Shown piece by piece: positions 24,480 through 54,312 of a stretch of DNA of 64,000 nt. The stretch lies in contig JAFVSN010000017.1 of the NCBI GenBank assembly GCA_017503735.1, positions 89,211-153,210 on the forward strand, written 5' to 3'. Source of the DNA: Lachnospiraceae bacterium. Its GTDB lineage: Bacteria > Bacillota > Clostridia > Lachnospirales > Lachnospiraceae. The notes under the pieces were generated by a model. It was not told where the DNA came from. It did no database searches and saw only the letters and a list, made by a program, of their open reading frames with translations. How positions within the stretch are numbered: position 1 is the stretch's first letter; each line of letters opens with the position of its first letter. The position numbers and the translations under genes were made by a program.

Positions 24480-24522
24480 GAAAAAAGCAGAAACTCCCAC
24501 TTCTGTATGCGGGAGTTTCTGC
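24478..24522 (-). terminator. Intrinsic terminator closing the 29-kb operon
   Basis: A perfect 12-bp stem GCAGAAACTCCC/GGGAGTTTCTGC with a 12-base loop (24487-24522) is followed on the minus strand by TTTTTTCTT. It lies 25 bases beyond the EAL gene and ends the ATPase/surface-protein operon. Confidence 0.92.
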
Positions 24523-24546
24523 AACATATAAGGAAAAAAATGAAGA

Positions 24547-26805
24547 TTAGATAGATATCTTGTTCTCAGCGGACCTTGCACCATATGCATACTCTTCGTA
24601 CTCATATTCCGGCAGCGGTTCCGCAAATACAAAGCCCTGCATCATATCACAACCGAGATTCTTTAACAGCTGTGCCTGACTCTTATCATTTACACCTTCC
24701 CCGACCACGTTAATTCCAAGTTTCTTGGAGGTTTCCATTACCGTGTTGATAATGGACTGTCCGCGCTCGGTCTTTTCATTTTCTAATAAGAACTGACGAT
24801 CAATCTTTAATTCATCTACTTTAATCTGATATAAGGTATTCATGGAAGTTGCCGACCTTCCGAAATCGTCCATGGCAATCAAAAAACCTTCTTTTTTCAG
24901 GGAATCGATTACTTCCTGGGTCAATTCCAGGTTTCCTGCAACGGATTCTTCCGCAAACTCAAGCATAATCAGGTTTTCCGGAACTCCGTGTTTGTGTACG
25001 ATTTCTTTTACACGCTTTACAAAGTTTTCATCGTAAAGGTTCTGCATGGAAATATTAATGGATAACGGCATCGGCTTAATCCCTTTCCGGATCCATTTAC
25101 GCAAACGGTTACAAAGGTCATCCAAAATGTACATATCCAGTTCCATAATAAACCCGTTTCTTTCAAACAGGGAGATGAAACGTCCCGGATACAATAAGCC
25201 TTTTTCCGGATGCATCCAACGAACCAAAGCTTCCGCACCGGTCTGCCTTCCGTTTGTAAGAGAAAACTTCGGTTGTAAATATACCAAAAATTCCTTTTCT
25301 TCCAAAGCCGCGTACATGTGCTCCTCAAATTCCCTACTCTCGGTTTTGGAATTTTCCATGGTACTTTTGTACATCTCATACGGAGCTTTAAAACTGGACT
25401 GAGCCGCTACCAAAGCCGTATTTGCACAACGAATCATTTCGTCCACGGTAATATCGGTGCCGTTCATACAATAAACGCCCACCTTTAAATCAAAAGAAAA
25501 CTTTGCATAATTTCGTTCCCATCCGTTATCATCCCCGATTTTATCCACAAGATACAAAATACGTTCCTTTAATTCCTCTTCACTCTGATACTTCAAAAGA
25601 AGAATGAAAAACATCGTATTATAACGGCAGAATGCCTCATCGGAATGAACAAATTTACTGATAACCGAAGACATAAAGGATAAGGTTTTATTGGTTTCTT
25701 CGTTACCGAAGGTTTCCTTAAAATAGTCAAACTTATCCAGCGTGACTTCAAGAAACGCATACTTGGAATTCGGGTCTTTTTCAAAGGCACGATTCATTCG
25801 ATTCGCAAAGCCCTTGAAGTTATAAGACTTTGTAATATGGTCTACATTTGCCATACGCTCTAAGGCATAACGTTTCTGTGCTTGGAACATGAGAAGGATT
25901 ATCAAAAACACAAATGCCGCCAATGCCACAAATACCGGAACATAATCAGAAACTCCGTTGTAGTGATCCGATAAAAACGGAAGAATCTCTTCTTTTTCAA
26001 TAATTGTAGCAACACCCCAGTCATTTACCTTACGGATTCCTTTGTAAGAAACGATATGTACTGTTCCGTCTTTATCCGTTACAAATTCCGTGTTACCCTT
26101 TCCCTGTTTGATGACCTGTTCCATGTTCAAATAACTATCCCCTTTTTTGTCCCACAGGGATAAGATTGAGGAATCAGAAAAAGCACCGGACAAAGAAAGG
26201 ACTGTAGTTGCACTCTGATTGATTAATAAAACATCTTCTTTTCCCCGAAACTCTGAAGTTGATAAGGAAGAATGCAACACATCCGGAGCCCATCCTGCAC
26301 GAAGTACCGCCACAACTTCCGTCTTCGAATCGGAAGAAACGACAACCGGAACATGAAAAACTGCCGTCGGAGTTTCCCCCTCCGAAAATGCTGTATACGC
26401 AATTACCGTATCTCCTAACATTGCACGGACATAGTACTTACATTCTTCCACGGAAAAGCTTCCGCCCATGGAATCATACGCAATTCCTTCCGTATCGCAA
26501 ACAGCAGCTTTTGAAAAGCCGTATCCTTCCATGGCAGAAACAACCTTCTGAATGCATTCCAGCGAAAATAACTCCTCCACAGACTGCGATGCCATAAATG
26601 CTGCTGCGGCATTCATTGCGGACACGCCGTCTTCCAGACGTGTCTGCAATCCATCCGTTGCCAATACATTGGAACGTTCCACCATGGATAATGCCTGATG
26701 GTCTAACATTTCGGTTTTTGACTTGTTTGAATCTTTTACAAAGAAAAGAACTCCGCCCAAAACCAAAACACCTAATAGAATTGTAATAAAACTAGTCTTC
26801 TTCAT
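24547..26805 (-). CDS. Membrane c-di-GMP phosphodiesterase: Cache-like sensor, degenerate GGDEF, EAL
   Basis: The 752-residue product has a membrane segment at about 7-23, an extracytoplasmic sensor of about 260 residues that resembles a Cache domain, a second membrane segment near 295-315, a GGDEF domain near 325-485 and an EAL domain near 500-740. The GGDEF active loop reads CRYNTMFFILLLK, so it should not make c-di-GMP. The EAL domain keeps AEALVRW, INISMQNL, LEFAEES, AMDDFGRSATS, ELKIDRQF, VVGEGV and the MQGFVFAEPL segment, which fits an active phosphodiesterase. The ATG at 26805 overlaps the end of the 3753-residue gene by 14 bases, tying it to that operon. Confidence 0.88.
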   Translation of the reverse strand: MKKTSFITILLGVLVLGGVLFFVKDSNKSKTEMLDHQALSMVERSNVLATDGLQTRLEDGVSAMNAAAAFMASQSVEELFSLECIQKVVSAMEGYGFSKAAVCDTEGIAYDSMGGSFSVEECKYYVRAMLGDTVIAYTAFSEGETPTAVFHVPVVVSSDSKTEVVAVLRAGWAPDVLHSSLSTSEFRGKEDVLLINQSATTVLSLSGAFSDSSILSLWDKKGDSYLNMEQVIKQGKGNTEFVTDKDGTVHIVSYKGIRKVNDWGVATIIEKEEILPFLSDHYNGVSDYVPVFVALAAFVFLIILLMFQAQKRYALERMANVDHITKSYNFKGFANRMNRAFEKDPNSKYAFLEVTLDKFDYFKETFGNEETNKTLSFMSSVISKFVHSDEAFCRYNTMFFILLLKYQSEEELKERILYLVDKIGDDNGWERNYAKFSFDLKVGVYCMNGTDITVDEMIRCANTALVAAQSSFKAPYEMYKSTMENSKTESREFEEHMYAALEEKEFLVYLQPKFSLTNGRQTGAEALVRWMHPEKGLLYPGRFISLFERNGFIMELDMYILDDLCNRLRKWIRKGIKPMPLSINISMQNLYDENFVKRVKEIVHKHGVPENLIMLEFAEESVAGNLELTQEVIDSLKKEGFLIAMDDFGRSATSMNTLYQIKVDELKIDRQFLLENEKTERGQSIINTVMETSKKLGINVVGEGVNDKSQAQLLKNLGCDMMQGFVFAEPLPEYEYEEYAYGARSAENKISI

Positions 26806-29800
26806 TTGCCTTACCACCGTTCTGATGTTTGTAAATTAAAATACCCAACAAAATTGCTACTCCGGCAATCGTAAGGAACATTAATACCATACCGTTCCGA
26901 TCGTCATCATCCATTTGACTTACATCATTCATATAAGGGATATAACGATCAATCATATGACCGGAAAGTTTCACTTTCTCATTCATTGACGTCAGGGACG
27001 TGTCAGCCACCGCCAAAAGTTCTGCTTCATCAAATAGCACATATTCATTCAATTCGGAATCAAAGAACGGAACATACTTCTTTTCTTCGGAACCGCCTCC
27101 GTATACCGAGCCGTTTCCTCTTACTTCCGAATATTGATTCTGGAAAGCTTCCTCCGCTCCCGTAACAGAACCGCCACCGGTACTTCCTGTCGGTCCCGGA
27201 ATTCCGTCGATTCCCGCTGTTCCGTTCTTATCGGTCTGTAATGCGTCTCCGGACACATCCGATGAAGAACTATCCGACACTTCTGTTTTACCGTTTTGAA
27301 CTCCGGTTTCTGCTCCCGGAGTATTTGTTACTGCCGGGGTTACACCTGTCTGCTCTGTTCCTGATGTTTGACCGCCTCCGGAAGACGACACTCCGTCTCC
27401 GGAATCTACATTCGTTCCGTCTCCCGTATGACTTCCCGACTGTGTTGCGTCTCCGGAAACTTCATTGGTTCCGTCACCGGTAACGCCACCCTCTGTCTTT
27501 GTATCTCCGGAAGTGCTTCCGCTACCGCCGCCTAATGCATCTCCGTTTGCATCACTTCCGTTTTCCGGTACGGAAGTATTGCCGGTAAGACTGCCGGAGG
27601 TTCCGTTTGCTGCACTGGTTCCGTTTACCGGAGACCAACCGGACGCAATCAATCCGCTCTCAAAGGCCTGAATCTCTTTATAACTGTCGGATGCATTTGT
27701 AATCAATGACGAACCCGTTGCGGAATTCCCGCCCTGTGCATTTCCGGTTCCTTCTCTTAAGATTCGGAACAAAGTCTCACCGGAAAGATAATCAAAGCCC
27801 ATCACTCCGCCATCCTTATAACGCACAAGAACAATTGAAGCATCCGTATCCAGATTGTTTGTCATCTGGGCAATCTTGTTATTTACAAACTCCTTTGGAA
27901 AACAAAATGTCTCACCGGTTAATTCCGCAATACTGCCGCCATGCTCCAGTATTGCCGTCAATTCACCCAAACCGACTCCGGTTTCCAAAATCACTGCATC
28001 GGCTTCTTTCGATAACGCACTGTCAATAGCAAACAAAGTATTATCCTTTACATACAGCCTCTTATTATTTCGTTCCATTCCCGCAGATACTGTAAATCCA
28101 TGATATAATTCAATCTTATATCCGTCATAGGTAAACTGTGCCAACGGAACAACTGTTTCAGCCACACCGTTTCCTTTTGCTTTTCCCATGAGATTTCCGG
28201 TTGTCACATCATACAACATACCGTCTACAGTCAAAGCCTTTCCTTTATATAGGTTAACAAAATTACCTGAAATCGTTGCACGACTTCCTTCCACACCGTT
28301 TCCTGTAATATAGAAATACTCATCCCCGGAAACCGTAATATTTCTTGATACATCTACCGCATTGATACGATACTCGCATTCCTCTTCTCCGTCAGTTACG
28401 GTTACAAGCAGTGTTGTCTTGTAATCGTATTGCAACGTAACCACACGACCGGAAACCGTTCCTTCCGCTATGGTTTTTCCGTTTGCGGCTACCACATAAG
28501 AAGCTGCCGGATTTACGGAAGAAAACTCAAGATTCAACTTATCCGCATCCACACAATATGCAGTCATGGTCGGCAATTCTACTTCCTGTACCACCGGTCT
28601 TCGCATCATCATCAGGGAACGTCCCGAAACAAATCCCGGAATCGGAACACCACCCTTATACGTCTTGTAATTATAGGTCTTTACACCGTTTGCATCAACC
28701 GCAAAACCTTCCTGGTATCTGACCAAAGAATTACCGGCCTCATTGTCTCCGTAATAAAGACGATACGTCACGTACGGCATAAATCCGTTTGTCAAACCGT
28801 CAAATTTCCAATAGGTCGGTGTGGTGGTAAAGCCCACTTGAACACCTCCGGACTTCTTTGACCAAAAATCTATGTTCTTTAAATCCGATGTGGATACCAC
28901 CGACACATTATCCGCATGTTTCTGCTGTTCCGGAGTCAAACCGGTTGCGCCGTCCGCTTCGGTTCCGTTATAGTATTGTTCCGCGGTCTGTTCTCTTTGT
29001 GCGGTTCCGTATACCAATTTTGCATCCTTATATACCACACTTTCAAGGAATACACCGGTCGGATTCGAAATACGGTTTGCAATGAGCTGAATGTGCGGAT
29101 TTACAATATCCGAAGTTACACATACCGTACCGGTCATCATAAGGTCACGGTTATCTCCGTACACATCCTGATAACACCGTCCGATGATACCGCCTACATA
29201 ATCATTGGCGGATACGGTTCCCGCGAAGTAACAGCTGTATACCCTCGGAGTCTCAGAAAGCGCATAAGTCGCAGTCTTATTGATGCAGCCGATAATACCG
29301 CCGGCATTGGTACCCTCATCGGTAATGTCTACCTTGGACGGAGCTACCGCAGATACGGTTGCATTGGAGTAATTATTGGAACTGGTATATCGTTTTGCAA
29401 TACCGATGATACCGCCCACATTCTTCGCACCGGTTACGGTACTTTCCGTACATGCATTACTAAATACTCTTGCGGTACGGCTCCATGTATCATATCCGAT
29501 GTTTACATGGTGTCCTACAATACCGCCCACTTCTTCTGCGGTAATACTTCCGATAGTACAATTTGTTACTACATTATTTTCAAACAACTGCCCCATACCG
29601 GAAATACCGCCGATTTGGGCATCCTGATCAATTTTGTTTGCCGACGGCGTACCGGAATACTTATTCCACATCTGGTAACGCCAATCTATCCCCTTATTGG
29701 AGGTTAGGAGAAGTATATCCAAATATGTCTGTGCATTCTCCAGAGTCCTTCGCTCAAAATCCCCGAGAGAAGCATCGGAAAGCTTTTCTTCCACCGCATT

Positions 29801-32800
29801 CTTTCTCGCCGTTACCGCAGCCTGATACAAATCATTGGTGGTTGCGGAATCGGTCCGTGCCCACGCAGAGGATACAGTACTGTCTACCACATGGGTTGCC
29901 AATGCATTTCCGTAACCCACAATACCACCCACACGATAGTTTCCGTAAATATCCGAGTTCTTCACCGTAACATTACGGGAAGCACCACCGATACCTGCCA
30001 CACCACCCACATGGTAGTCACCCATCACAAACACATTATCCACCACAGACGGTGAAGCATCCGTACTGTTCACAAGATATCCCTGACCGATCACACCGCC
30101 CACTCTGACGCGTCCAATCATGAATCCGTCCTTTACAATGATATTATTCATGGTTCTTCCGTAGGTCGTCGCTGCGGCATAACCGGCCACGCCACCGGCA
30201 TCCACATTTGCAAAGATAGCAAAATCCGTAAGGGTAATTCCGGTCAGCTTTGTGGCACCATTCATATACCCCACAATTCCGCCGGTATAATAACGGTCAC
30301 CGGATAAAATGGAAATATTCTTTGCCTCTATGTTGTTAAAGCTTGCCGTACTGTTGGAATAGCCTACAAATGCCGATGTGGTGTTGGTGCTGGTTACGCC
30401 GGTTGCATCTGCCTGTACATAAACACCATCAATTTTTACATTGCTTGCCGCACCGGAAAGCATACTAATCAAAGCTACATTATTAGTATAACCGCCACCG
30501 TGTCTTCCTGCCGTATACTCATCTCTGTAAGAACTGTCAATAACAATATCCGTAAACCGCACGTTGCTGACATTGCCTGCCGCATGACCGATAATACCAA
30601 AGTTTCTTGTCTTGGTTCTGTCAAGCTTCTCTAACTCAATATTCTCAAACTTAATATTACTGATACGTCCGTAAGCTGTATCGATAAGCGGGTAATTAGT
30701 TGCCCGGTTAATCCCGGTAATCTTTACCCAGTTTGTTTCTTCCACGAAACCGCCAAGCACCCGGTTTACAATGACATTTTCCTGATAATCGCTCTGTCCC
30801 GTAAAGTCGAGATTACCGTTGATACGAATATTGTACCCCTTCTGTCCGTGCTGAACCATCTTAGAGTTCCAGTCATCCGCATTATTAATATCAAGGAACA
30901 ATGCCGGAATCAAGGAATCCAGATTCAAGGATATCTGCAAATCTTCCGTTTCGTTTACCTTACCGTCAATCCCGGTAATATAGTAACGATCCACATAGCC
31001 CTGTGCCAAAACCTCGTAAGCAATTACGGATTCGGTGGTACCGTTCTTTGTAATCTGCGGTCCGGAGGATATAGACACATTACTGTCAAATCGTAACGCT
31101 TCCACATTATAGTTCTCCGGATGAGACACCGTTACCTTTACTTCAAACAATTCCGCATTACTCGGATTTGCAGCAGCGGTTATTTTGGTAATTTGCACAT
31201 CGGTTTCTTCAAAGGTATGGAACTTCTGATACGGAAGCACTCCCGTACCGTCTGCGGTACGCAACCAAGGAAGCTGCTCATTTTCCGCATAGGTGGTAGT
31301 ACCGATCACCGCACCGGCTCCGTCCGTTACCTCATAAGTCAGGGCAAAGCTCTCCCCGATATCCAAATTCCGATATACACCGTCTACCTTAATACCGTTG
31401 GTATAAAACTCCGGATTACAAAGCATTTCTCTGGTGAGATATACATACGGATCTTTCTTGTTTCTGGTATCGGTGTCATCTCTGTCTTCATTATTCAGAC
31501 GACCGTTTACATAGGACGCTTCCTTAAAGGTGTACAAACCGTCCTTCACAAGATTTGTCGTTGCAGTCTGAAATCCGATATATCGGCTGACATAATTAAA
31601 CTCTTCATTTCTCATGAAAATATTGCCAAGGAATAACGCATTTACCTTTTCCGCTTGATTTGCCGGTTGGGAATATGCAACCAAACCACCCATAAGATCC
31701 GAAACGGAAGAAATATCCGCATCAATGTATACATTTTGTAACACATAACCATCCGAATAGGTTTGATTAATAATACTTCCCGCCACACCGCCGGTGTACT
31801 GGAAGAAACTATCTATCACAGTATCCGCAACATATAAATTCTCCAGCGTACATCCTGACGTCACACGACCGACAATACCTCCGATACCACCTACATCGGA
31901 AGCATCCCGAGCTGTAATATGCAATCCATCCACATAGCTGTTGGTTATGGAAATAATAACATCTCCGGAACCGATACCGGCAATACCGCCGATATACTGG
32001 GTATTTCCGTTGTTTTTACTTGTGGTGGTGATGGTTGCGTCATGCACCGAACAATTCACAATGGTATTTCGTCCGGCATGCATCATCCCCACCAGACCGC
32101 CGGAAACTTCCGTACCGGTGATGGTAACCCCTAATACATGAACGTTTTCAACCACACTGTCTTTTCCGATGGTACGAATCACTGCCCGTCGTAAACTTAC
32201 CGGCTTTTCCGGATCCAAGGCAGAAATATCCACATTTTTTACGGTTAAGTTCTTAACGGTTCCTCCGTACAAGGATTCAAAAAGTCCCCCGTACTGACGC
32301 AAATCCAGATTGGAAATGGTTTTTCCGTTTCCGTCAAAGGTTCCCGTGAAATTATAAGCATAGGTTGCCCAGTTTGACGCAGCATGCGCCACCGGTGCCT
32401 TTCCGTTTCCGATATAGATTGCTTCCATCGGATAATATGCAAAGTCGATATCGTTGTACAAACGATAATTCTGACTTCTGTCATCGTTGATTTTTATCCA
32501 ATCGGAAATATTGGAAATGGCATGATAAAACTCAAACCCGATTTTCTTATATTCGTATTCGGAATAATACCGGCTATAGGAAATCAAATCCCTTGCGGAA
32601 CCCATTTCAAATCCCTTAATATTATACTCCGAAAAACACTTCTCCGGCTTGGAAACCCTAATTCTTACATGCCAGAAATCTTCTGCATCATACTGATTTA
32701 ATATTTCTACATTTTCCGAAGCAAAATGTTCAATGGAAACAAACTGTACCGGTGTTTTTCCCGGATTATACAAAGTAAGTTCGCCGATTGCATAATCCAT

Positions 32801-35800
32801 GCCCTGCTCAACCACTTCCGTATAAAGAATTTCCGGTCTGTCAAAGTCGGATAATTCCGGTAACAGAAGCCACGGCTGCTCCGGCATACCGGCCGCCATG
32901 TTCACATGCGGGTAAAAGCCCTGGCGCACCGGATTGGTATCCATTTCTCCCGCCTTTGTGGTAGCGGATGCATCATTTAATAATTCGTCATACCATTCCG
33001 TATCATGTAAGGCCGCCTTCTCAAGCAGGATATCAGCCAAAGTTGTTTTGTCATAGCTTTCTCCGGAATACAAATACATATTTTTTTCTTCCGGAATTCC
33101 GCCGGATGATGCATTAGTATATAACGGAGAAACACTATTTTTTATAATATAACCGTCACCGTAGGATTCCTTGTAATATACACTTCCCGAAGAGAAACAG
33201 TTTCGTACCATTCCGCGGTTAGAACCTACAAAAAACGTCATACTGTCACTGGTGCGGTACGGCATGGAAGAATAAATATCCATCACGGTAAAGCAGTTTT
33301 CAATGGTGCCGCCCACACGGTTAACGGAAGCAATTGCACCGATATAATTTGCCTGACTCTGCTGTGTGGCATCCATATATTCCTTCGGTACATACTTAAT
33401 CGGATTTCCGTATACATAACCGTTCCGGATAATTCCCCAGTTAATATAGGTAACCGCACCCGCGTACTGTCCCACATACCAGTCATCTTTAAAGTGAACC
33501 ACAAAATTCTCAATGACGCCGCTGTGACGATTATGGGTTGCAATACCATATCGGTTTTGGTATGTAATCGTTGCATTAGAGGAATTCTTTTCATATACCA
33601 CATTACGGATGGTTCCGTAATTGTTATACGTAAGAACTGCTGTTGTATATCCCACAAAGCTGTCCGCATGGGTCACTACCACATTCTCCACCACACCGTT
33701 GGTACCGATATTATAAATCGGTGCGTACTGATGGTTGGTAATTATCTTATATCCCTGGAAATCCAGATGTCCTTCAAAGAACACGCCGGAAGTAAGACCG
33801 GTCTGTGCCCAATGCCAGGTGCCGAAATCAATATCATTTAATGCCACATAGGACGCTTTGGTATCCCAGCAGATAAGAGAAAACTCTTCTCTGTTGCGGA
33901 TTCCGTGTACCACATTTTTAGACTCAAAGGTAATACGATCCAACGTAATCTCATATCCGTCTACAATGGCTGTCAGAACCATCTCATAAACATGACCTTT
34001 TGCCGCATTTCGATCCACTTCGTAGAAGAAGTCTGTAATACACTGCTTATCGTCCGCCGTATAGGAAATTGCTTCCAGATACTGCGGAGCCTGTCCGTCC
34101 TCATGTAAAATATCATACAGATACACCGCTTTTTCCGGCACACCGTTTAAGCTTGTATATACATGCTCCTGCATATCGTCAAGAATTCCGTCTTTGTATA
34201 CCTTAATCCGGTAAGCTGCCATACTGCCAAGCTGTCCTCTGACGTCATTGATGTCAACAGATATATTGGCATATAAATTCTCTTCCGAGGATACTTCCTC
34301 AATATTGCGGAAAATCACACCGGAAAAGGCACCGATCCATGCATAATTAGACTTATCCGTACCCACATATTCCACATACACGGTCTGCTCCCCTGTAAGA
34401 GGTGCCGCTCCGTCCTTAAACTTCGCCGCATCCAGCCATTTTATTGCATAGTTATTGAAGGTTTTTCCTTTTCCGTCTAAGGTGGTCTCTGCCACCGGTA
34501 CCGCAGACGCATTTACGGTAGGGTCCTCCGTATATAGCTTAATCGCAAGCGGGTATCCTCCGGAGGAATGGCTGTAACCTACCGACATGGAATTATATTC
34601 TCCCGTTCCGAAGTCGATAGTGGCTTTATAAACCACGCTCCAGGTATTTTGCGGCGGATTATACCGCTTGAACGGAACAGCGGTGGTTCCATTCGTTGTG
34701 TAAGAAACCTTATTAATATCACTTGTACTTGTGATATACTTCCCTGTCGGTGACTTTTTCACCGCATACGGTGTAAATAAATTTTGGGTTCCCTTTGCCC
34801 CTGTTAATACTTCCAATTCACTATGATTTTTCACCTTGTAGGTATTCATGCCGATAAAATTGAGGTTACCAAGTACAGCCTCTCCTGTTTCTAACACAAG
34901 AAGCTCCTTTGTCTTTACATACGGTTCATAGTAAAGTTCATAATTGGTACTGTAATCCGCACTGTCCGGAACGTCGTTATATCTGGTCACAAAGAAACGG
35001 AAGGTATACTTTTGGAAGCGATTTAACGGTTCAATCACAATCTCCTTTACCTTGTTACCATCTGCTACCTCTCCTGCCGTAAAATTCTTACGGAATACCG
35101 GATAACCGTTTTCATCATATACTTGTACAGACAACGGGTATTCTAACACAGCTCCGTCCTCATCCACTACCGATAAATCGAACAAACGAATACGATTTCC
35201 GGTTACATAAGCCGAACCGATACGTACAAACGGAGTCTTCTTTAAGGTTTTAAAGGAATTCGGGGAAAAATTGGTACGAATTTCACGAACCACTCCATAT
35301 TCTTCATTCCCCACATGCACCTTCGGAGTCATCTGAATCCGATATTCGGACATACTATCCAGACCGGATAACATAAAGCGGATGCCCGGTCCATGAATCC
35401 CGTCTAATTGATATTCATATAAGGTTGTACTTCCGTTTTCTTTTGTAAACAGGATATCGGAAGACACCGGCGGTTCCGAATCATCCGGAACACCTTCCCC
35501 GTCTTCTCCCAATCCTTCATCCGCATCCAGAATTCCGGTATCTGTAGAATCTCCGGATACAGTTCCATCCTCCGAACCGTCACCCGTTTCCGGCTGTTCC
35601 TCCGGTAACGTGTCCGTTCCTCCGTCGTTTGCGGAATCATCTTCCTTTGCTACATACTGCACCACAATTCCTTCGGAAGAAGTACCGGTTACAGTACCGT
35701 TTTCATTCCGCAATACCTTCACAAAACCGATATCATACTCATCTATCAAAGCAGCCAGCTTCTGATTCGTACGCTCATTGTTTAATTGTACGGAAACCGT

Positions 35801-38053: not shown

Positions 38054-38079
38054 GGCATTTCTCCTTTCTTACTTTTTCC

Positions 38080-39435: not shown

Positions 39436-39447
39436 AAAATCCCTCGT

Positions 39448-40665: not shown

Positions 40666-40948
40666 GGTTATCCTCCTTAATCAGTAATTTAAATACATTA
40701 TTTTTCACTACAAAGAACCCGGAAATCTGCTTTAAGGAAACAATACTGCCTTCAAAGCTATCTTCCCGTACCAGTTCCACATCGCCGTCTATTTCTCCTA
40801 CCGTCGGCATATAATCCGCCATGATAAGCAGATTAATCCCTTTTCCTTTCAGGCGGATCATTTTTACATCATGATACACCGTGAACCCGTTATTATAACT
40901 TATAATAATGGCCTCAATTCTCTTATCTGACTGCAATGCCTCTGCCAT
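40655..40948 (-). CDS. F1 epsilon-like subunit, N-terminal sandwich only
   Basis: The 97-residue protein aligns with the N-terminal beta-sandwich of F-ATPase epsilon: INLLIMADYMPTVGEI corresponds to the epsilon GILPGHAPLV region, and ISGFFVVKNNVFKLLI to the epsilon GGFLEVKNNKVTILA strand. The usual C-terminal helical hairpin (about 40-50 residues), which inhibits the enzyme in bacterial F1, is absent. In F1 this subunit joins gamma to the c ring. Its position after beta is the normal one. Confidence 0.78.
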   Translation of the reverse strand: MAEALQSDKRIEAIIISYNNGFTVYHDVKMIRLKGKGINLLIMADYMPTVGEIDGDVELVREDSFEGSIVSLKQISGFFVVKNNVFKLLIKEDNHVQ

Positions 40949-40960
40949 GTCTCATCTCTC

Positions 40961-43122
<2,162 letters not shown>

Positions 43123-43134
43123 AAGCTACCTCTC

Positions 43135-44457
43135 TTAATACTCCACAAGACCGTCAAACAAACGATACATCTCCTCCACGGAACGCGGTGCAAATTTATA
43201 TTGATTCAAATTACTGCGAATCTGCTTTCCGTTTGTCATCTTCTTTCTGAGTTCCGGACTCATTTCATCCATATTGGCAAGCTCATATACATCACAAGAT
43301 TCCAGATAGGACAATAGTTCACGACGAACCGCAGCTCCGATTCTCTTCATATCCTTTGTCTGCACCGCACCGCCCAGACGAGATACGGATAATCCGTAGT
43401 CGATTGCCGGCTTAAAGCCCTTTTCGAAATTTTTCTGTGACAACACAAGCTGACCGTCCGTAATGGAGATAATATTACTGGAAATATATTCCGTAATATC
43501 ACCGCCCTTTGTTTCCACAATCGGAAGCGCCGTAATGGAACCGCCGTTTTTATGCTGACAGCCTCGTTCCAATAAGCTTGCATGAATAAAGAAAATATCG
43601 GACGGATACGCATCACGTCCCGGAACCTTACCGGTAAGCAGGGAAATTTCACGGTAAACATCCGCATGCTTCTTCAAATCATCAAATACAACCAGTACAT
43701 CTTTTGCATCACGAAGCATAAAATGCTCTGCAATTGCCATACCGACAAACGGGGTATTACGAAGTACCGGCGGACATTCATCATTAAATGCTGCCAAAAT
43801 CAGCGTATATTCCATAGCTCCGCGACGAAGAAGCTCTGTATAAATTTCTTTTACTTCCTTTTTTGTCTTACCGATTGCCACATAAATGCAAAGCATACCG
43901 CTTCCCTTCTGATTTACAATGGCATCTAAGGCAATCTGGGTTTTACCGGTTTTTTTGTCGCCGATAATGAGCTGACGCTGACCGCGACCGATCGGATAAA
44001 TCATATCAATTCCCGTAATACCGGTTAAGAACGGACGATTCACGCTGGTTCGGTCCATAATCGGAATCGGTTTTGTCTCAATCTGTAACGGAATCAAATC
44101 ATCAAAATACTGACCGGTCATCAAATCCTTGCCGAACATATCCACAATACGACCAATGGAAGCTTCACAGAATTTTCCCGTAAATTCTTCGCCGGTCGGT
44201 GTCACAATATCTCCCACAAACACTTCTTCTGTTACTTTTACAAGTGCCACACCGATGGAATTACGATTAACGGCGCTGACATAGCCTTCTGCCTTATCAC
44301 CGATACGGACACGTTCGAAGAAACCGACGCCAAGCAACCCTTCCACTTCCAAAACGTAGTCGTTTACCTTGATTACTCTGCCGATTTCATATACATTCTC
44401 ATTATTTTGAATGGCATTTATTTTTTCTTCTACTATTTTATCAATCTGCTGACTCAT
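43135..44457 (-). CDS. F1-type ATPase alpha-like subunit, short C-terminus
   Basis: The 440-residue product is an F1 alpha homologue with the P-loop IGDKKTGKTQ at 165-174 (housekeeping alpha: GDRQTGKT), ISITDGQLVLS and the inter-subunit arginine in SVSRLGGAVQ (R360). The N-terminal beta-barrel is present. The protein stops shortly after APRSVEEMYRLF, so about 60 residues of the usual C-terminal domain are missing compared with a 500-residue alpha. The distinct alpha and beta proteins rule out a homohexameric secretion ATPase such as FliI. Confidence 0.93.
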   Translation of the reverse strand: MSQQIDKIVEEKINAIQNNENVYEIGRVIKVNDYVLEVEGLLGVGFFERVRIGDKAEGYVSAVNRNSIGVALVKVTEEVFVGDIVTPTGEEFTGKFCEASIGRIVDMFGKDLMTGQYFDDLIPLQIETKPIPIMDRTSVNRPFLTGITGIDMIYPIGRGQRQLIIGDKKTGKTQIALDAIVNQKGSGMLCIYVAIGKTKKEVKEIYTELLRRGAMEYTLILAAFNDECPPVLRNTPFVGMAIAEHFMLRDAKDVLVVFDDLKKHADVYREISLLTGKVPGRDAYPSDIFFIHASLLERGCQHKNGGSITALPIVETKGGDITEYISSNIISITDGQLVLSQKNFEKGFKPAIDYGLSVSRLGGAVQTKDMKRIGAAVRRELLSYLESCDVYELANMDEMSPELRKKMTNGKQIRSNLNQYKFAPRSVEEMYRLFDGLVEY

Positions 44458-44468
44458 CTTATCCTCCG

Positions 44469-45224
44469 TTACAGTGTTATTTCAGAACTGCGTAAGCCGT
44501 AATCATACAAACGGTTTCCCTGAACAATTTGAAATCCTTCACAAAGTTCTTCATCTTTACAGATAATTAACCGATCCGACTTGGCTTGTATTCCTAACGC
44601 ATCCGGTTCTCTGGAATACAAATACACCGTCTGATCCAGTTCTTTACTCTTTCCTTGCAAATAGGAATAAAACTCTGTCACGGAAAACACCGGACCGTTT
44701 TCTTCCGTATACCGTGTTAATACTTCCTGCTCCGTTTCGGAAAAGATCTCATTTAATACCGCTAATTGTTTTTCCGGTTGAAGACAGGAAATCCGAAAAA
44801 CACTGTCAAAGGAAAGTTTCTGTAAAATCCCGTCCACACATACTCCCAAAACAATATCCGAATCCGAAAACGCCGGGAGATTCCGCAGCGCCGATGCCGC
44901 ACTGTTCCGAAATGCACTCCGGATTTTCACATAATCCGCAAAGAAATCTTTCTTCTGGGTTTCTACATTCTTTGCAATAAACGGAATTGCCGGGTCTTTT
45001 GGAAGACCGAACTCTTCTTCTGATTTTACGGAATCCGTAATCTCTCGGGCATTCGTTTCCGCTTCCGAAGCTTCTTCCATATATTTATTGTAAACTTTTA
45101 TGTACCGAAATACTTCTTTTTTTAATTTCTGTAATACTCCGGATGATAACAGTACTACCGCAAAAATAACAACTGCACAGGAAATAACAGTAATGATGAC
45201 GGCTGCAATCATATTTGCACTCAT
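44469..45224 (-). CDS. Stator-like protein: N-terminal membrane helix, delta/E-like C-terminus
   Basis: The 251-residue product has a membrane helix at about residues 5-27, a charged helical stretch at about 32-70, and a C-terminal part that ends in CEGFQIVQGNRLYDYGLR. This resembles the end of F1 delta (GGFVVRVGDRVYDGSVR-type) and, more loosely, V-type subunit E. Its place between c and alpha is where b and delta genes normally lie. I read it as a single-chain replacement for b and delta, with a much shorter coiled coil than a normal b subunit. The delta part is by-eye homology only. Confidence 0.6.
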   Translation of the reverse strand: MSANMIAAVIITVISCAVVIFAVVLLSSGVLQKLKKEVFRYIKVYNKYMEEASEAETNAREITDSVKSEEEFGLPKDPAIPFIAKNVETQKKDFFADYVKIRSAFRNSAASALRNLPAFSDSDIVLGVCVDGILQKLSFDSVFRISCLQPEKQLAVLNEIFSETEQEVLTRYTEENGPVFSVTEFYSYLQGKSKELDQTVYLYSREPDALGIQAKSDRLIICKDEELCEGFQIVQGNRLYDYGLRSSEITL

Positions 45225-45241
45225 CGTTCATCCTCCTATCC

Positions 45242-47844
<2,603 letters not shown>

Positions 47845-47855
47845 ACTTTCCTCCT

Positions 47856-50800
47856 TTATCCTCTATAGTTGAATGTTGCTTCTTCCAGACTCTTACCGTC
47901 AGAACCAAGGAACTTTATATAAACGGAATACCATTCTCCGGTTTCGAATTTCGGTAACAATTCAATGTATTTTACCTCATCGGACTCCTGCTTCACAATA
48001 AAACTGTCCGTATAGGTCTTACTGTCACTATCGTTAAGCTTTGTAACGGAATAGATTACATTGGTAATCGGACATCCCACATCACCGAGACCAACGGAGT
48101 TGGAAAAATACAGGTTTGCTTTATTAGCACCGGCAGATAAGATATTCATATTACCGAGCGTATAGCTCTTATCTCCTAACGGTTGTGCCGTCACTAGCTT
48201 TACTCTGTGATTCGGATTTGAAGTGTCCAGTTCTTCTGCGGTACCTAAATTCAATAAATCTGTTACTGCATAAATTTCTAAAACAATAGAATCGCCTGCA
48301 AGTAAATTATTTGCGGTAATCGTATAAGTCGACGTGCTGCTGTAACTGTCTCTTAAGCCGTCAATCCCGTCAGCCGCAGTCAACACGGTTCCGTTGCCGT
48401 CTTTTACAACCACCTTATAGGTATTGTTATAAATTACCTTTTGTGCATCCGTAATAGCAATACGGAATTTAACCTTATCGTTACCCGGTGTTGCCACAAC
48501 ATTATAGAACGGCTCATTCGGTTCCGGAATATTTAAGGAAATCGGCACCGGGCTTCCGAGAGGAATTTCTTCATCTACCGTAGATACCGGTGTCATCAAA
48601 AGGAAATATTCGTCACTTCCGAATTCAAAATTCATCGGATCCCCCGTAACCGGGTCTGTCCACGTAACAAGTCCCGGTGAAAATTTAAAGTTTACCATGG
48701 TCGGTTCCGTAATCAGGGTGGTATTATCAATAATTCCCTTTTGTCTTAACTCCAAAGCCGTCATAATCGGCTCATACGTATCAATTCCGGTTCTTCTTAC
48801 AAAGTCATATTTTACCTGGAATCCGGAGGTGGTAGACGGAACAAACGATACCTCCAACGTCTTGGAAGTATAAGTATTTGCCCGCAATATCGCAGTATTA
48901 TTTACCGGTATAAGTACAACAGAATCCAAGGTTGCAAAGGTATAAAAACGATCTGTATTCGAGTACTTATAATCCAGCGGAAAATGCTTTGTTGCCCTTT
49001 CTAATGTATCATTCGGGTCCAAATAGTAAAAATGAATCGCATAGGTTTTTTCCGGTGATAAGCCTTCAATCTTAAACACATACTCCGTATGTTCGGCACT
49101 CAAAGTTGTTGCTCCCGGAGCTGCCGGATCCTCGAATGTATAAGATACCCCATTCTTTGAAGTTTCGCCGTTTGCCCCGATAATCGTCACTCTGGCACCG
49201 TTTTGTACTTCATATACTTCCAAATACATTTTATTATCACGAATCTGACCGTTGGTAAGTAAGTTTCCGTGTCCGGCCAGAGACCAGTATACGGTTGCGC
49301 TTTCCGGTTCGGCAACAATATTGTAGGAATTACCGAGCCACAAGTCCACGGTAGGCAATGCATTGGAAATATTCGTTTCAAATGTAGATGCAGTCACGCC
49401 TTCGGAAACAAGACAGGAAAGACTCTTTTCCTTAATCTGTTTCAAAGTAGTAACCACGCCCGGTCCGCTAAGCTCCGTACCTCTCATTCGCGGAAGAAAT
49501 ACTAAGTTGTTCTTATCTTCTCCGATATTATACTTCGGATCAATCACGGAAGTATAGTCAAAGATAACAGCATAGTATCCACTGTCCTGATAAGCTTTCG
49601 AAATGTCATTTTTCTTCGTTACGCTAAACAAAGAATTCCATGCAAGGGAATCCCCTAACGCAACATTTGTATGACCGGAATCCAATGTAATATATCGGGC
49701 ACCGGTACTGATACTTTCCGGAACCACCTGAATTGCAAGCGTCTCCGTTCCGGAACCTTCCGCTAATTTTAGTCCGCTTACCTTGGTATCGTATAAGGCA
49801 ACTACCTCACCCACAATCTGTTTTCCTACAAAATCGGAAATGCTACTGTAATTCAAGTATGCGGTTGCCGATTCTGTCGTAGCAACATCAAGCGGTAACA
49901 AAAATTCCTTTGCAGTTGAAGTATCATTCTTTTCCCACACTCTTACACGGACTGCCGTCAAACGTGTAACAGGTTCCGTTGATACGGTATTATTTTTTGC
50001 CTTTACCGTAAACTTCAATCGGTTGGTTGCATTATCATTTTCCAGCGTATAAACAAAATTATCAAAGCCCGCTTCATATTCGTACGCCTGTTTAATCACT
50101 TCGCGGACAGAACCTGTCTCTCCGGCATAACTGCGTACCGTAGCACTTACCAGAACATCCTTTTTATTATTGATGTTCGTAATGGTAATCGTGCCCTTTT
50201 CCGTTCCCATAGCGGAATAGTTAACTGTAGCATCATCAACCGTTCCTCCTACCACATCAAAGGTTGTGTCGAGTGCACCCGTATCCGGTGCCTTGACCCA
50301 ATAAATATAAGTCAGACTGCCTGCACCGTCGCTGCTGTATTGCAGGAATTTAAACTCCGGTGAAAGATACGGAACATCCACCGTTTTGGATTTCATTACC
50401 GGCTGACTCGGGTCGTATGCGTCCGGGAAATAATCCGAATGTTCCCCGATATATACACGACCGCTGAAATAGTAATGATGTCCTCTGGAAAGCTGCCCGG
50501 TATTGGATATGTCCTTAAATAAGAACACCGCCGACGGAACAGTCTTTGCCCCCGTAGTAGAGTCAATAGAAATCATATCCGCCTTCTTGGATTCAATATT
50601 CGTATAAAACTCTCCCGCATCCGTTACTCCGGCATTCTTACCCACTTCTAAGGCATAATAGTCGAATCTTGTGGCAAGTCCGGCGGAATTATCATATCTG
50701 GATGTAACCTTTATTCCAACCACCGCCGATGCCGGAAGATTCGGATTTACCAGCGAAGCACTTTGGCCTGCACCAATCAGACTTTCTCTGTTATTATGAA

Positions 50801-53789
50801 TTGTAATAATCTCAAATCCGTCATCCGCCCAACTTTCCTGCCATTCCGGCGGAACTGCTGCTTTTTGGAACACTTTCATACTGTTTGCCACGGTAAAACG
50901 GTTCCGATACTCCGTATAGTCCTGTACCGCAGCAATTTCTACCGTATATTGGTCCCCGTCAATCTGCGCCGGACTAAAATTAGCAAAATCCGCATCCGTC
51001 AACCGGATTTCCTGTGTTTCACCGTAAATATCACGTCCCAGGGTACTGTTTCTCTGGGAAGCGGAATTTAACCCGGACGCATCGTTTTCCGCACTTAAAA
51101 TCTTAGAGGCCACAAGAGTCGCCGTACTGTTTTCCACGGTCTTGTCTCCGCTATAAATGCGAACCTCGATTTTATCAATGGTACTTGCTTCGTAAGAAGA
51201 AGAGGTTGTATTATTTCCATCCGTTAACCGCATGGAAAATCCCACACTGGCCGTAGGAATCGATGCAAAGGTCGCTTGGAACGAAGCCGGATCCTTTGTC
51301 TGTGCAACAATGGTACCCAACTGGCTGTTAATATACGCTGAACCCGAACCGGAATTTTCCCCAAGGTCTGCATAGCCCCATACGGTGATAATATAATTAT
51401 CGGAGGCACGAAGTCCCGACCAGTCCACCGGAATCTCAAAGGTTCCGTTTCCGTCGGTTCCGGTAAAGGTATACTCACTGATATCATCCACTGCCATCTG
51501 ACCGATTTGACCGCTTCCGCTCTTATAATAAATCACAATCGGATGCTGTCCGTCTACACGAAGTCGAGTATTGTTTGTCTCAATCCGGATGGTTCCCACC
51601 AAACGGTCGTGTCTTGTAAATGCGGTATCTCCCGGAATGCTCGGGTCTGCCGTTGTCTTTGCCGTATACGATACAAGCGGGAATCCCACATTCATCATGG
51701 CAAACGGTGCGGAATAATCTTCGCCGGCAACTTCCACAACCTTTTCGTTGTCATAGAAAACCGCCACAACCCGTACACGATACGTGGTATTCTTCATTTG
51801 CGATGTCACGTCACAAGCCAACACATTGTTACCGGTAATCAACATGGATTTTTCCGGTCCGTTTGTGGTATTCACAGAACCGTCCGTATAACAAGGATAC
51901 AGTTCATAACGGAAGTACTGGACTCCGTTATCCTCATCCTTTAAGCCTTCCAACTGCATGTTAAATACAGCGTTCGCCTTGTCTACTACAACTCTCGGAA
52001 CCCCCAGCTCCGGTAATTGTTTTAACGTGCGATGCTCCTGAACATCAATCTTCTGAAAGGTCTTTACTCCGTCAAACACATCATTAAAGAACACCTGATA
52101 CAACGTATTGGATTTAATCTCTCCGTACTCATTCTTAAACTCAACCAAAGCGGTTCCGTCCGCATCGAAAGATGTAATCGGAACAGATTTGATGATACCG
52201 GTCTCATCCGCAAGCGCAAGACTTACACTCTGCACACCGGAATAACTACTCTTATATACATTGAATGCAAGACTGTCTTCCGTAATATAGTTTTTCACAA
52301 AGGTAAGACCGATTGCATTGGTGGTAAACACTCTCTTTAAAAAGGTTCTTTCATAGGTTCCGTTCTTTACGATATAGTTTGCATTTATCATAAGGCAATA
52401 CTCGGTATTGGCCGCAAGACCATCCACCACAACATCAAACGGAGAACCGTCGGAACTGCTCTTCTTTAACCGACGTACTTCTCTTCCGCTGGCATTGTCA
52501 AGAACCTTTACCGTAATATCTTCTACTCCCGGCATCATAACATTACCATCTGTAATAGAAACAATAAATTTCGCCTCGTTGGAAGAAAGCTCCATATTGC
52601 TTAACGTAAATACCGGAAGCTGGATTTCTTCCTTTTCTCCCCCCGGAACATCGGAACCGTCAATTACCTGATCCCCGCTTAAGCCGTCTTCACCCTGAAG
52701 TCCCTGTGCTCCCGCCATACCGGCTGCACCCGGACGTCCTTGTGCACCGGATGCTCCGCTTGCTCCGTTTGCCCCGGAATTTCCCGGTGTTCCCGGGGTT
52801 CCCGGTGTTCCCGGTGTTCCCTGATTTCCGTTAATTCCGTCTTCTCCGGCGAGTCCTTCCGCTCCCACAAGACCATCCATGCCGCTTACACCGTCCGCTC
52901 CCTGTGCCCCGGTCTTTCCTTTGGTTCCGTCTGTACCCTGCTCGCCGTTAATTCCGTCAGCGCCGTCAATGACTTCAAAGGTCGGAATATGAATCTGTAA
53001 CTGCTGTTCTTTTACCTTGTCTTCCCCTTTCACCGCTTTAATCGGTGCAAGAATATCGATATTGTCATCGGAACCGATTACCATCTGTTCCATGGACATC
53101 AGCACATTTTCTTTTGCAATTACCGTTCTGCTGGCAAGGTCAATCTGAATTCCGTTTTCTACCGTCGCAATACATTCCGAAGATACCGTACGATAGGCAC
53201 CGTTTTCGGAAAGAATTAACAAGATACCTTCGTTATAATATTTTAATTCTACAAATTCCGTAAATTCCAATTCCTGCTTGTCTGCCATCGTAATCACGAT
53301 TTCATCCGAAGCAAGCATATATTTATTTTCACCGATTTTCCAGAGAAAGTCCTTGAAATAAAGAGAATTTCCCTGAGTTTCCAACGCATAAGAGCCACCC
53401 TGGTTTTCCAACGTGGCTTTTGAAGAAAGATTATAATAATTTAACACACCGGTTTCACAATCGTTTAAATCAATCAATACGCCCTGGCTGAGTGCCGATA
53501 CGGAACCGTCATTAAAATGCAGGAAAGAATTGACATCCGTAACAACCTCCATATCGGAAGAATCACGAAAAGTCACCTTGTCCGGATAATGGTATTCCAT
53601 TTTATCGCCTTCTTCAAAGGTATACTTTGCAAAACCTCCTTCAAGGTCTTCTGTCCCGTCAATCATATACCCGCTTCCCCAGAATGCGGTTTTTGACTCA
53701 TTGCTCTTTACAATACCGTAAGTACCGGCTCCTCCCGCAAGCAAAAGAGACGCAATTACCATTACTAAGACGCTTTTTGACTTAAACAT
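47856..53789 (-). CDS. 1977-residue surface protein with collagen-like stalk
   Basis: This is the first gene of the operon. Residues about 5-27 are a membrane or signal segment. Residues 30-270 are a beta-rich module shared with its neighbours (CIATVENGIQIDLAS at 206-220 matches the 405-residue protein). Residues about 276-378 are Gly-X-Y collagen-like sequence (GTPGTPGTPG, GAQGRPGAAGMAGAQG), and the rest is a long series of fibronectin type III-like beta modules. There is no C-terminal anchor or LPXTG; the end is EEATFNYRG. The start has GTGGGG eight bases upstream. It is preceded by a promoter and by a c-di-GMP riboswitch. Function is unknown; a trimeric surface fibre is likely from the collagen segment. 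Confidence 0.8.
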   Translation of the reverse strand: MFKSKSVLVMVIASLLLAGGAGTYGIVKSNESKTAFWGSGYMIDGTEDLEGGFAKYTFEEGDKMEYHYPDKVTFRDSSDMEVVTDVNSFLHFNDGSVSALSQGVLIDLNDCETGVLNYYNLSSKATLENQGGSYALETQGNSLYFKDFLWKIGENKYMLASDEIVITMADKQELEFTEFVELKYYNEGILLILSENGAYRTVSSECIATVENGIQIDLASRTVIAKENVLMSMEQMVIGSDDNIDILAPIKAVKGEDKVKEQQLQIHIPTFEVIDGADGINGEQGTDGTKGKTGAQGADGVSGMDGLVGAEGLAGEDGINGNQGTPGTPGTPGTPGNSGANGASGASGAQGRPGAAGMAGAQGLQGEDGLSGDQVIDGSDVPGGEKEEIQLPVFTLSNMELSSNEAKFIVSITDGNVMMPGVEDITVKVLDNASGREVRRLKKSSSDGSPFDVVVDGLAANTEYCLMINANYIVKNGTYERTFLKRVFTTNAIGLTFVKNYITEDSLAFNVYKSSYSGVQSVSLALADETGIIKSVPITSFDADGTALVEFKNEYGEIKSNTLYQVFFNDVFDGVKTFQKIDVQEHRTLKQLPELGVPRVVVDKANAVFNMQLEGLKDEDNGVQYFRYELYPCYTDGSVNTTNGPEKSMLITGNNVLACDVTSQMKNTTYRVRVVAVFYDNEKVVEVAGEDYSAPFAMMNVGFPLVSYTAKTTADPSIPGDTAFTRHDRLVGTIRIETNNTRLRVDGQHPIVIYYKSGSGQIGQMAVDDISEYTFTGTDGNGTFEIPVDWSGLRASDNYIITVWGYADLGENSGSGSAYINSQLGTIVAQTKDPASFQATFASIPTASVGFSMRLTDGNNTTSSSYEASTIDKIEVRIYSGDKTVENSTATLVASKILSAENDASGLNSASQRNSTLGRDIYGETQEIRLTDADFANFSPAQIDGDQYTVEIAAVQDYTEYRNRFTVANSMKVFQKAAVPPEWQESWADDGFEIITIHNNRESLIGAGQSASLVNPNLPASAVVGIKVTSRYDNSAGLATRFDYYALEVGKNAGVTDAGEFYTNIESKKADMISIDSTTGAKTVPSAVFLFKDISNTGQLSRGHHYYFSGRVYIGEHSDYFPDAYDPSQPVMKSKTVDVPYLSPEFKFLQYSSDGAGSLTYIYWVKAPDTGALDTTFDVVGGTVDDATVNYSAMGTEKGTITITNINNKKDVLVSATVRSYAGETGSVREVIKQAYEYEAGFDNFVYTLENDNATNRLKFTVKAKNNTVSTEPVTRLTAVRVRVWEKNDTSTAKEFLLPLDVATTESATAYLNYSSISDFVGKQIVGEVVALYDTKVSGLKLAEGSGTETLAIQVVPESISTGARYITLDSGHTNVALGDSLAWNSLFSVTKKNDISKAYQDSGYYAVIFDYTSVIDPKYNIGEDKNNLVFLPRMRGTELSGPGVVTTLKQIKEKSLSCLVSEGVTASTFETNISNALPTVDLWLGNSYNIVAEPESATVYWSLAGHGNLLTNGQIRDNKMYLEVYEVQNGARVTIIGANGETSKNGVSYTFEDPAAPGATTLSAEHTEYVFKIEGLSPEKTYAIHFYYLDPNDTLERATKHFPLDYKYSNTDRFYTFATLDSVVLIPVNNTAILRANTYTSKTLEVSFVPSTTSGFQVKYDFVRRTGIDTYEPIMTALELRQKGIIDNTTLITEPTMVNFKFSPGLVTWTDPVTGDPMNFEFGSDEYFLLMTPVSTVDEEIPLGSPVPISLNIPEPNEPFYNVVATPGNDKVKFRIAITDAQKVIYNNTYKVVVKDGNGTVLTAADGIDGLRDSYSSTSTYTITANNLLAGDSIVLEIYAVTDLLNLGTAEELDTSNPNHRVKLVTAQPLGDKSYTLGNMNILSAGANKANLYFSNSVGLGDVGCPITNVIYSVTKLNDSDSKTYTDSFIVKQESDEVKYIELLPKFETGEWYSVYIKFLGSDGKSLEEATFNYRG
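52676..52965 (-). repeat. Collagen-like Gly-X-Y coding repeat
   Basis: About 33 Gly-X-Y triplets, with one block of four Gly-Thr-Pro/Gly-Asn-Ser type units and several Gly-Ala-X, interrupted rarely. This favours a triple helix and thus a trimer. Confidence 0.9.
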
Positions 53790-53892
53790 AAATCTTACCC
53801 CACTTTTCTTGTGTTTATTTTTTCGATATTATCGTTTGTTTTTGAAATTTCAGAACAAAAGGCACAAAAATCATTATAAAAATGCCAACTTT

Positions 53893-53921
53893 ATTATACC
53901 AAATCCATCTGTTTTTTTCAA
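53893..53921 (-). promoter_or_regulatory. Sigma-A promoter proximal to the 29-kb operon
   Basis: On the minus strand TTGAAA (53916-53921) and TATAAT (53893-53898) are separated by 17 bases. It would give a leader of about 95 bases ahead of the 1977-residue gene and would bypass the riboswitch. Confidence 0.7.
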
Positions 53922-53986
53922 TCAATCCTACAAACATTCTTGGATTTGTTACAAGAAAATTGCGGATAATTGAGAACAAAGAGTTC

Positions 53987-54140: not shown

Positions 54141-54143
54141 CGC

Positions 54144-54250: not shown

Positions 54251-54252
54251 AA

Positions 54253-54307: not shown

Positions 54308-54312
54308 TTTAT

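Follow-up and report, generated by a model that had tools for sequence, protein, structure and literature searches.

A conserved gene cassette encodes an F1-like ATPase with a carboxylate-free c subunit beside giant surface proteins

Rotary ATPases classically exchange ATP for ion gradients. Here we describe a gene cassette that encodes an F1-like head and a c subunit but, as far as its sequences tell, no path for ions. It lies in a 64,000-nucleotide stretch of DNA (the window) from a Lachnospiraceae bacterium (assembly GCA_017503735.1, contig JAFVSN010000017.1, forward-strand positions 89,211 to 153,210), where twelve co-directed genes occupy positions 24,547-53,789 of the minus strand. An earlier note, made from the letters of the window, had read these genes as one unit running from a promoter region to a terminator. 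The unit stands: the list of open reading frames (ORFs) matches the positions, and signal-like sites lie at both ends. Neighbouring genes overlap or lie at most 32 bases apart; in the order of transcription the spacings are 11, 32, 17, 11, 12, -4, 12, -11, 12, 26 and -26 bases, negative values being overlaps. In that order the genes are:

47856..53789, minus strand: giant 1, 1977 amino acids (aa); N-terminal hydrophobic anchor, membrane-proximal domain, collagen-like stretch at about residues 276-375, long remainder
45520..47844, minus strand: Gly-rich protein, 774 aa; N-terminal anchor, membrane-proximal domain, GGX-rich stretch, TPTPE repeats
45242..45487, minus strand: c subunit, 81 aa; Pfam ATP-synt_C at 2.6e-8, Ala60 at the position of the ion-binding carboxylate
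44469..45224, minus strand: b-delta-like peripheral-stalk protein, 251 aa; N-terminal hydrophobic segment, delta-like C-terminus, no Pfam match
43135..44457, minus strand: alpha, 440 aa; Pfam and NCBIfam matches, short C-terminus, N-terminal helix kept
42334..43122, minus strand: gamma, 262 aa; Pfam at 2.3e-23, profile match to housekeeping gamma 99.5%
40961..42337, minus strand: beta, 458 aa, catalytic; Pfam and NCBIfam matches
40655..40948, minus strand: epsilon-like protein, 97 aa; named by operon position and a weak profile match to housekeeping epsilon
39448..40665, minus strand: 405-aa fusion of a multi-transmembrane protein (TM4) and a transmembrane-ectodomain protein (TMd)
38080..39435, minus strand: second ectodomain protein, 451 aa, named by position
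26792..38053, minus strand: giant 2, 3753 aa; N-terminal anchor, membrane-proximal domain, GLUG-like repeats (by eye), C-terminal transmembrane segment
24547..26817, minus strand: GGDEF-EAL protein, 756 aa; Pfam EAL at 5.1e-62, GGDEF at 7.1e-16

The c subunit lacks the residue on which ion transport depends, and so do its relatives. Two peptide patterns, run against 84,980 species genomes, picked out at least 133 relatives of gamma, and the best 80 of these 133 loci were kept (L numbers; this sample overlaps the genomes given G numbers, L030 being G004, L055 being G028 and L089 being G320). When cassette c proteins are aligned with the same genome's housekeeping c, an acid occupies the carboxylate column in none of 76. 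The column holds threonine in 33, alanine in 31, valine in 6, serine in 5 and methionine in 1. A second count, covering 71 scan loci and the window, likewise finds the carboxylate in 0 of 72. As a control, glutamate stands at this column in all 17 housekeeping c proteins of reference operons. Only one of the 76 (L059) has an acid anywhere in the second c helix, an aspartate one position off the column. The ring-packing GxGxGxG motif and the RNP motif of the rotor loop are nevertheless present in 72/72, and a profile built from five cassette rows and one housekeeping row matches known c subunits among solved structures. Subunit a found no match among the ten operon proteins scanned with Pfam. 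This c subunit is very probably ion-dead, which would leave the complex unable to pump ions. Judged from these alignments, what is novel here is the absence of subunit a together with a c subunit that has lost its carboxylate while the ring glycines and the rotor loop stay.

The residues of catalysis are kept throughout. In all 76 cassette betas we find the P-loop lysine, the catalytic glutamate, the next arginine and the Walker B aspartate; the P-loop lysine and arginine finger of alpha are kept in 70/70, a count that excludes alphas longer than 600 aa. That the complex is a non-rotating scaffold or ATP sensor, anchoring or gating surface proteins, is thus very unlikely: invariance of the tested catalytic residues, the arginine finger of alpha included, and of the c ring and loop motifs is hard to explain without turnover.

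Pfam and NCBIfam bear out the identities of the c, alpha, gamma and beta genes given in the earlier note. The head is nonetheless divergent, scoring below the NCBIfam cut-offs for atpA and atpD (397.5 against 484.45 bits and 452 against 462.85 bits). Identity as FliI or as an N-type ATPase was considered and rejected on NCBIfam scores: for FliI/YscN (TIGR01026, cut-off 379.5 bits) beta reaches 222 and alpha 172.5, and the N-type models give 353.2 (TIGR03324, cut-off 750.5) and 409.2 bits (TIGR03305, cut-off 752). The C-terminus of cassette alpha stops about 60-70 residues short of the end of housekeeping alpha. Five Bacilli-type loci (L059, L060, L088, L098 and L101) have an alpha ORF of 829-1090 aa instead of about 440; the three that were read (L059, L088 and L098) bear a long acidic, repeat-rich C-terminal tail, and in four of the five (all but L101) giant 2 does not adjoin the ATPase genes.

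How might such a head be held in place? The note had called the gene after c stator-like, which is half sustained. Against a background in which unrelated pairs score 0.06-3% (one 20%), the C-terminal domain of the 251-aa protein matches housekeeping delta with a profile probability of 91.8% (E 7.5e-7); its match to housekeeping b is 3%. Compared with solved structures, the b-delta profile yields no fold, the best match (E 0.011) being among hits mostly to influenza haemagglutinin coiled coils. The N-terminal helix region of alpha, by which alpha binds the stalk, is present in the four cassette members displayed and absent from three Type 3 alphas and one Type 2 alpha of mycoplasmas. Together, the delta-like domain and this helix argue for a stator.

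The cassette ATPase, judged by the gene content of the genome, is not the housekeeping enzyme, because the only subunit a of the genome sits in a separate ATP-synthase operon. PF00006 has six matches there: the cassette alpha and beta, a second pair on contig 16, one gene on contig 2 and one on contig 10. The contig 16 operon reads a, c, b, delta, alpha, gamma, beta (b and delta named by eye), with beta at the contig end, short of any epsilon gene, and holds the genome's single match to PF00119 (subunit a). By eye, we take the contig 2 gene to be FliI, with surrounding genes read as flagellar, and the contig 10 gene to be Rho. A housekeeping or duplicate ATP synthase was therefore rejected as an identity for the cassette, on the separate F1Fo operon with the sole subunit a and on the missing c carboxylate; the check for a separate atp operon proposed in the note does not refute the note's reading. 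In G388 the apparent end of a housekeeping operon (beta, epsilon; L026:1-858) lies about 6 kb upstream of the cassette, which runs from 6789 onwards on the same contig.

Not all hosts are so equipped. We surveyed 49 host genomes, drawn from 50 of the best 80 loci. An F-type subunit a is present in 30 and absent in 19, five of which have a V/A-type I subunit; three hosts (G468, G470 and G496) have more than one F-type subunit a gene each. The remaining 14 have two strong PF00006 matches each, at 226-250 bits, which by length and place we read as cassette alpha and beta (in G488 the two lie on two contigs). Beyond this pair six of the 14 have nothing, and eight have a single extra match: in five it reaches 86-103 bits and is read as Rho, and in three it scores 19-20 bits. 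Since the only strong alpha and beta matches are cassette-like, the cassette is the only rotary ATPase found in 14/49 hosts, whose genomes of 1.0-1.9 Mb were supplied without completeness values.

Those 14 hosts, and a gene order near that of the atp operon, would suit a divergent ion pump, one whose unrecognised subunit a is TM4 and whose ion sits on another residue. We consider this extremely unlikely. An acid is missing from the carboxylate column throughout, with the aspartate of L059 the single acid elsewhere in the helix, and the window's genome already has an F1Fo enzyme. A subunit a hidden in TM4 was examined and rejected, TM4 showing a profile similarity of only 5% to subunit a.

If the complex is not a pump, what does it serve? 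Its neighbours suggest an answer. The recurring order is giant 1, Gly-rich, c, b-delta, alpha, gamma, beta, epsilon-like, TM4, TMd, giant 2. Among the best 80 of 133 loci, the gene calls number 80 for gamma, 78 for beta, 77 for alpha, 75 each for b and epsilon-like, 71 for c, 70 for TMd and 58 for TM4; the last two counts are lowered by fused genes and contig-end cuts, and the epsilon and TM4 profile seeds each include one mis-framed row (L015), which weakens both profiles. We counted as testable those loci with at least 2.5 kb upstream of c (n=58) or downstream of TMd (n=59). A profile homologue of the Gly-rich protein lies directly upstream of c in 58/58, within 450 bases in 57; in L074 it overlaps an over-long c ORF. 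Further out, a giant 1 homologue is found in 44/58, and by the looser criterion of size any gene above 700 aa in 56/58. Downstream, 54/59 loci have a gene homologous to the giant 2 N-terminus that begins no more than 1.5 kb from TMd.

Conservation of the surface genes beside the ATPase, one of the checks named in the note, is thus borne out across families and, by record title, two phyla, Bacillota and Actinomycetota. The titles name Lachnospiraceae, Oscillospiraceae, Family XIII, other Clostridia, Bacilli, Erysipelotrichaceae/Solobacterium, Coriobacteriales, Bifidobacterium colobi LC6 and Kineothrix alysoides KNHs209, and many give a gut, rumen or faecal source. The Actinomycetota loci are L096 (B. 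colobi LC6) and L054, L061, L076 and L095 (Coriobacteriales); their presence suggests horizontal transfer between gut bacteria. Carriage on a mobile element was considered and rejected, gamma having no match among plasmid and phage records. The 405-aa protein occurs in 3/145 genomes searched, the window's own included. The gamma profile matches 8/392 genomes of the order, three of them (own included) at 238-527 bits and five at no more than 44 bits, read as housekeeping gamma. Our literature search, which had preprints and most subscription papers outside its scope, found no description of the cassette, and the accessible parts of PMC4154653 and PMC12306168 hold nothing on it. From this linkage, the cassette ATPase probably works with the giants.

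The surface proteins share a design. Giant 1, the Gly-rich protein, TMd, the 451-type protein and giant 2 each have, by eye, a hydrophobic start followed by a domain of about 200 residues; the hydrophobic segment of TMd lies inside the fusion, after TM4. In profile comparisons of the ectodomains the 451-type is tied strongly to TMd (99.9%) and to giant 2 (99.0%), and the Gly-rich protein to giant 1 (90.8%), against at most 3% for unrelated pairs that include these sets; the TMd set probably includes the 451-type protein of L030, and perhaps of the window, in TMd's stead, the fusion being labelled TM4. From these profile relationships we infer a possible membrane collar built of related anchors, whose two subgroups are only moderately linked.

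The 405-residue protein, which the note had treated as one gene, is a fusion of what are two separate genes in most relatives; the fused form is found in the window's genus, in L031-L038 and in L040. In L030 the counterpart of the 451-aa protein matches the TMd profile at only 18 bits, and at this position in the L031-L040 group eight proteins score 99.9% against TMd and 99.0% against the N-terminus of giant 2. A profile of the 405-aa protein finds nothing among solved structures at E up to 1. The collagen-like stretch of giant 1 (Pfam Collagen, 6.8e-15) is all that protein matches among solved structures, and giant 2 has no match there. Blastp aligns giant 2 over long stretches with the corresponding proteins of G388, G320 and G028; for giant 1 the match is long in G388 and G320 and only short in G028. 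A Peptidase_M26_N match in giant 2 is weak (1.1e-5) and below cut-off. The label Gly-rich suits 34/57 homologues (at least 10 GG). A Pfam HV_Gp350 match in the 774-aa protein sits on the TPTPE repeats and was not accepted as homology.

Because the ion path is lost across the family while the motifs of head and c are invariant, the output under selection would be something other than an ion gradient, most plausibly mechanical work. Our reading, to which we give a probability of roughly 0.6, is that the cassette encodes a dedicated ATP-hydrolysing rotary machine that transports no ions and delivers torque to a surface fibre complex. In this machine the b-delta stalk would hold F1, and ATP hydrolysis would turn gamma, epsilon and the c-ring. 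TM4 and TMd would stand in for subunit a, as membrane stator or as torque receiver. Torque would then reach the collar of related ectodomains that carry the giant fibres, and these may be rotated, extended or tensioned outside the cell. That the cassette forms a new class of rotary ATPase, its c-ring a purely mechanical rotor by which related anchors bearing giant fibres are spun or wound as a collar, we offer more tentatively, as somewhat doubtful. The note had proposed ATP-driven rotation acting on an extracellular fibre complex; with subunit a missing and the c carboxylate lost, a mechanical role is favoured over an ion-pumping one. Our reading is also supported by the linkage to surface genes, by the related ectodomains, by the 14 hosts whose only strong alpha and beta matches are cassette-like and by the gain or loss of the operon as a unit in the genus; the rotation and its coupling to the fibres are what we infer.

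Several observations weigh against this reading. TM4 has no detectable similarity to the subunit a it would replace, the b part of the stalk protein is without profile support, and the epsilon-like protein matches housekeeping epsilon at a weak 5.4% over 76 columns. A c gene is missing from its expected position in three loci (L062, L064 and L066). Giant 1 goes undetected by profile in 14/58 testable loci, and giant 2 is not beside TMd in 5/59 (L059, L060, L082, L088 and L098). Other links within the collar are moderate (TMd with giant 2 80%, with giant 1 69%, with Gly-rich 50%) or low (451-type with giant 1 33%, giant 1 with giant 2 and Gly-rich with giant 2 about 10%, Gly-rich with the 451-type 0.6%).

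The three loci without c before b are all from Lachnospiraceae, and two of them have another gene there (L062:7036-7665 and L064:7021-7620), which we take to be a serine recombinase from its appearance. A recombinase-like gene in the place of c hints at rearrangement or phase variation.

The same surface genes could be read as cargo. An F1-like ATPase might power the export or assembly of the giants as FliI-FliJ does in flagellar export, with the c-ring and TM4 as the gate. FliI and YscN are relatives of F1, and the NCBIfam scores agree; surface genes lie beside the ATPase in most loci; and the accessible part of Beven 2012 (PMC3369863) discusses translocation for the mycoplasma enzymes. The giants, though, have by eye ordinary N-terminal hydrophobic segments that would suit Sec, no export gate was matched by Pfam or NCBIfam among the ten operon proteins scanned, and the cassette keeps gamma, a delta-like stalk and c, which FliI-type systems are not known to have. 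We regard export as unlikely.

The ends of the operon carry the following features:

24487..24522, minus strand: terminator-like site, a 14-pair stem at the operon end (1 found against 0.1 expected)
53893..53921, minus strand: promoter-like site, TTGAAA-17-TATAAT with TG before the second hexamer, about 100 bases 5' of giant 1; a consensus match only
54,282-54,253, minus strand: second promoter-like site upstream of giant 1; a 12/12 consensus match only
~24485..54312: block of ~29.8 kb absent from six same-genus genomes, delimited by breakpoints in flank homology

On both strands of the stretch upstream of the operon, promoter-like sites number four against 1.3 expected, all of them consensus matches only. 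The block is defined by its flanks. A mutS-like gene (22,731-24,413) and a gene at 55,548-57,086, presumably spoIVA, occur in all ten genomes of the genus. In six of them (G001, G002, G003, G005, G008 and G009) the two lie 1.36-1.51 kb apart, against 31.1 kb in the window, and the 405-aa protein is absent; in G004, which has the operon, G006 and G007 the two are split between contigs. All six short-gap genomes regain homology to the window at 54,306-54,338, and in five it ends on the other side at 24,483-24,486, L184 having no match there. Breakpoints on both flanks indicate that ~24,485-54,312 was gained or lost as one block, GGDEF-EAL gene included.

That last gene is a lineage-specific, non-core member of the unit. 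The note had named an EAL protein; the EAL domain is there, but the domain set was incomplete, the protein being GGDEF-EAL, and the gene is not core to the cassette. It closes the operon in two of the five operons read downstream (the window and G004) and not in G028, G388 or G320. In G320 its place after giant 2 is taken by a 1386-aa protein (L028:3-4163) that has a hydrophobic segment at the C-terminus.

If the cassette does form such a new class, an ATP-driven rotary machine works at the surface of walled and mostly gut-dwelling bacteria and is retained even where the genome is small and no ion-coupled ATP synthase is found. The mycoplasma gliding and MIB-MIP motors would have in it a counterpart from walled cells, one with a recognisable c subunit and part of a stalk. 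Whether an F1 motor can do mechanical work across a membrane becomes a testable question in isolates such as Kineothrix alysoides. There is also a practical consequence: alpha and beta matches alone may wrongly credit a genome with an ATP synthase.

How does the cassette compare with known systems? With the F1Fo ATP synthase it shares alpha, beta, gamma, c, a delta-like domain, an operon-like gene order, the catalytic residues, the c-ring glycines and the RNP loop. It differs in having no subunit a and no c carboxylate, in carrying b and delta apparently as one short protein, in the short C-terminus of alpha, in the TM4, ectodomain and giant proteins of its operon, and in forming a separate clade (100/100). 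FliI and the type III secretion ATPases resemble it in being F1-related hexameric ATPases that work with an envelope machine. FliI-type ATPases are homohexamers that are not known to carry this gamma, c and delta set. The window genome has a FliI-like gene of its own in what is, by eye, an apparent flagellar operon.

The closest parallels are in mycoplasmas. The Type 3 F1-like X0 complex of the MIB-MIP system is likewise an extra F1-like head in an operon with surface proteins, and the part of PMC12994834 available reports that MIB-MIP function requires ATPase activity. Its X0 has three proteins, one with 12 transmembrane segments and two of 19 and 87 kDa, and no cassette protein matches any of them. 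In Mycoplasma mobile the F1-like head of the Type 2/G1-ATPase is proposed, in the available part of PMC11864180, to give a mechanical output at the surface in gliding; the Type 2 enzyme differs in the N-terminal extension of its beta, its dimeric heads arranged in chains and its lack of a peripheral stalk gene. Neither type has c, b/delta or the alpha N-terminal (H1) helix, the last as described in the same parts of PMC12994834 and PMC11864180; the cassette has c, a delta-like stalk and the helix. Four loci with Type 3-like alphas (L160, L161, L162 and L155) have no canonical P1-P5 directly upstream, and other ORFs stand there, in three of the loci including one of 1239-1486 aa.

Could the cassette nonetheless belong to the Type 2/3 X0 family, or be its direct ancestor? 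Both pair an F1-like head lacking subunit a with surface proteins, and some trees draw them together. Thirty cassette taxa were chosen for our concatenated alpha and beta tree, and the 29 with a full beta stand in it beside 18 housekeeping, 10 Type 3 and one Type 2; the cassette, Type 3 and housekeeping groups each receive 100/100, and a split of Type 2 with housekeeping (88.8/97) accompanies the arrangement of cassette with Type 3. With thinned taxa and three arrangements, cassette with Type 3 is best (approximately unbiased test, AU, 0.80) and cassette with Type 2 is rejected (0.025), but Type 2 with Type 3 is not (0.24). In a paralogue tree containing FliI, the betas of cassette, Type 3 and Type 2 group together, apart from housekeeping (92 and 84), whereas the alphas unite Type 2 with Type 3 (95) and place both nearer to housekeeping than to the cassette, at a support of only 35. 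Rooting by FliI and by the alpha/beta duplication thus conflicts, probably because of long branches. The proteins speak against membership. Of 19 Type 3 stretches read, 11 clusters were used for comparison, and in these P1, P2 and P5 match no operon profile above 3%, the best non-gamma match being P4 with TMd at 11%; the gamma of Type 3 is nearer to housekeeping gamma (97.6%) than to that of the cassette (75.6%). We therefore consider common membership quite unlikely. The mycoplasma parallel drawn in the earlier note holds as an analogy, the trees leaving common origin unsettled: the Type 2 and Type 3 motors are best regarded as analogues of the cassette.

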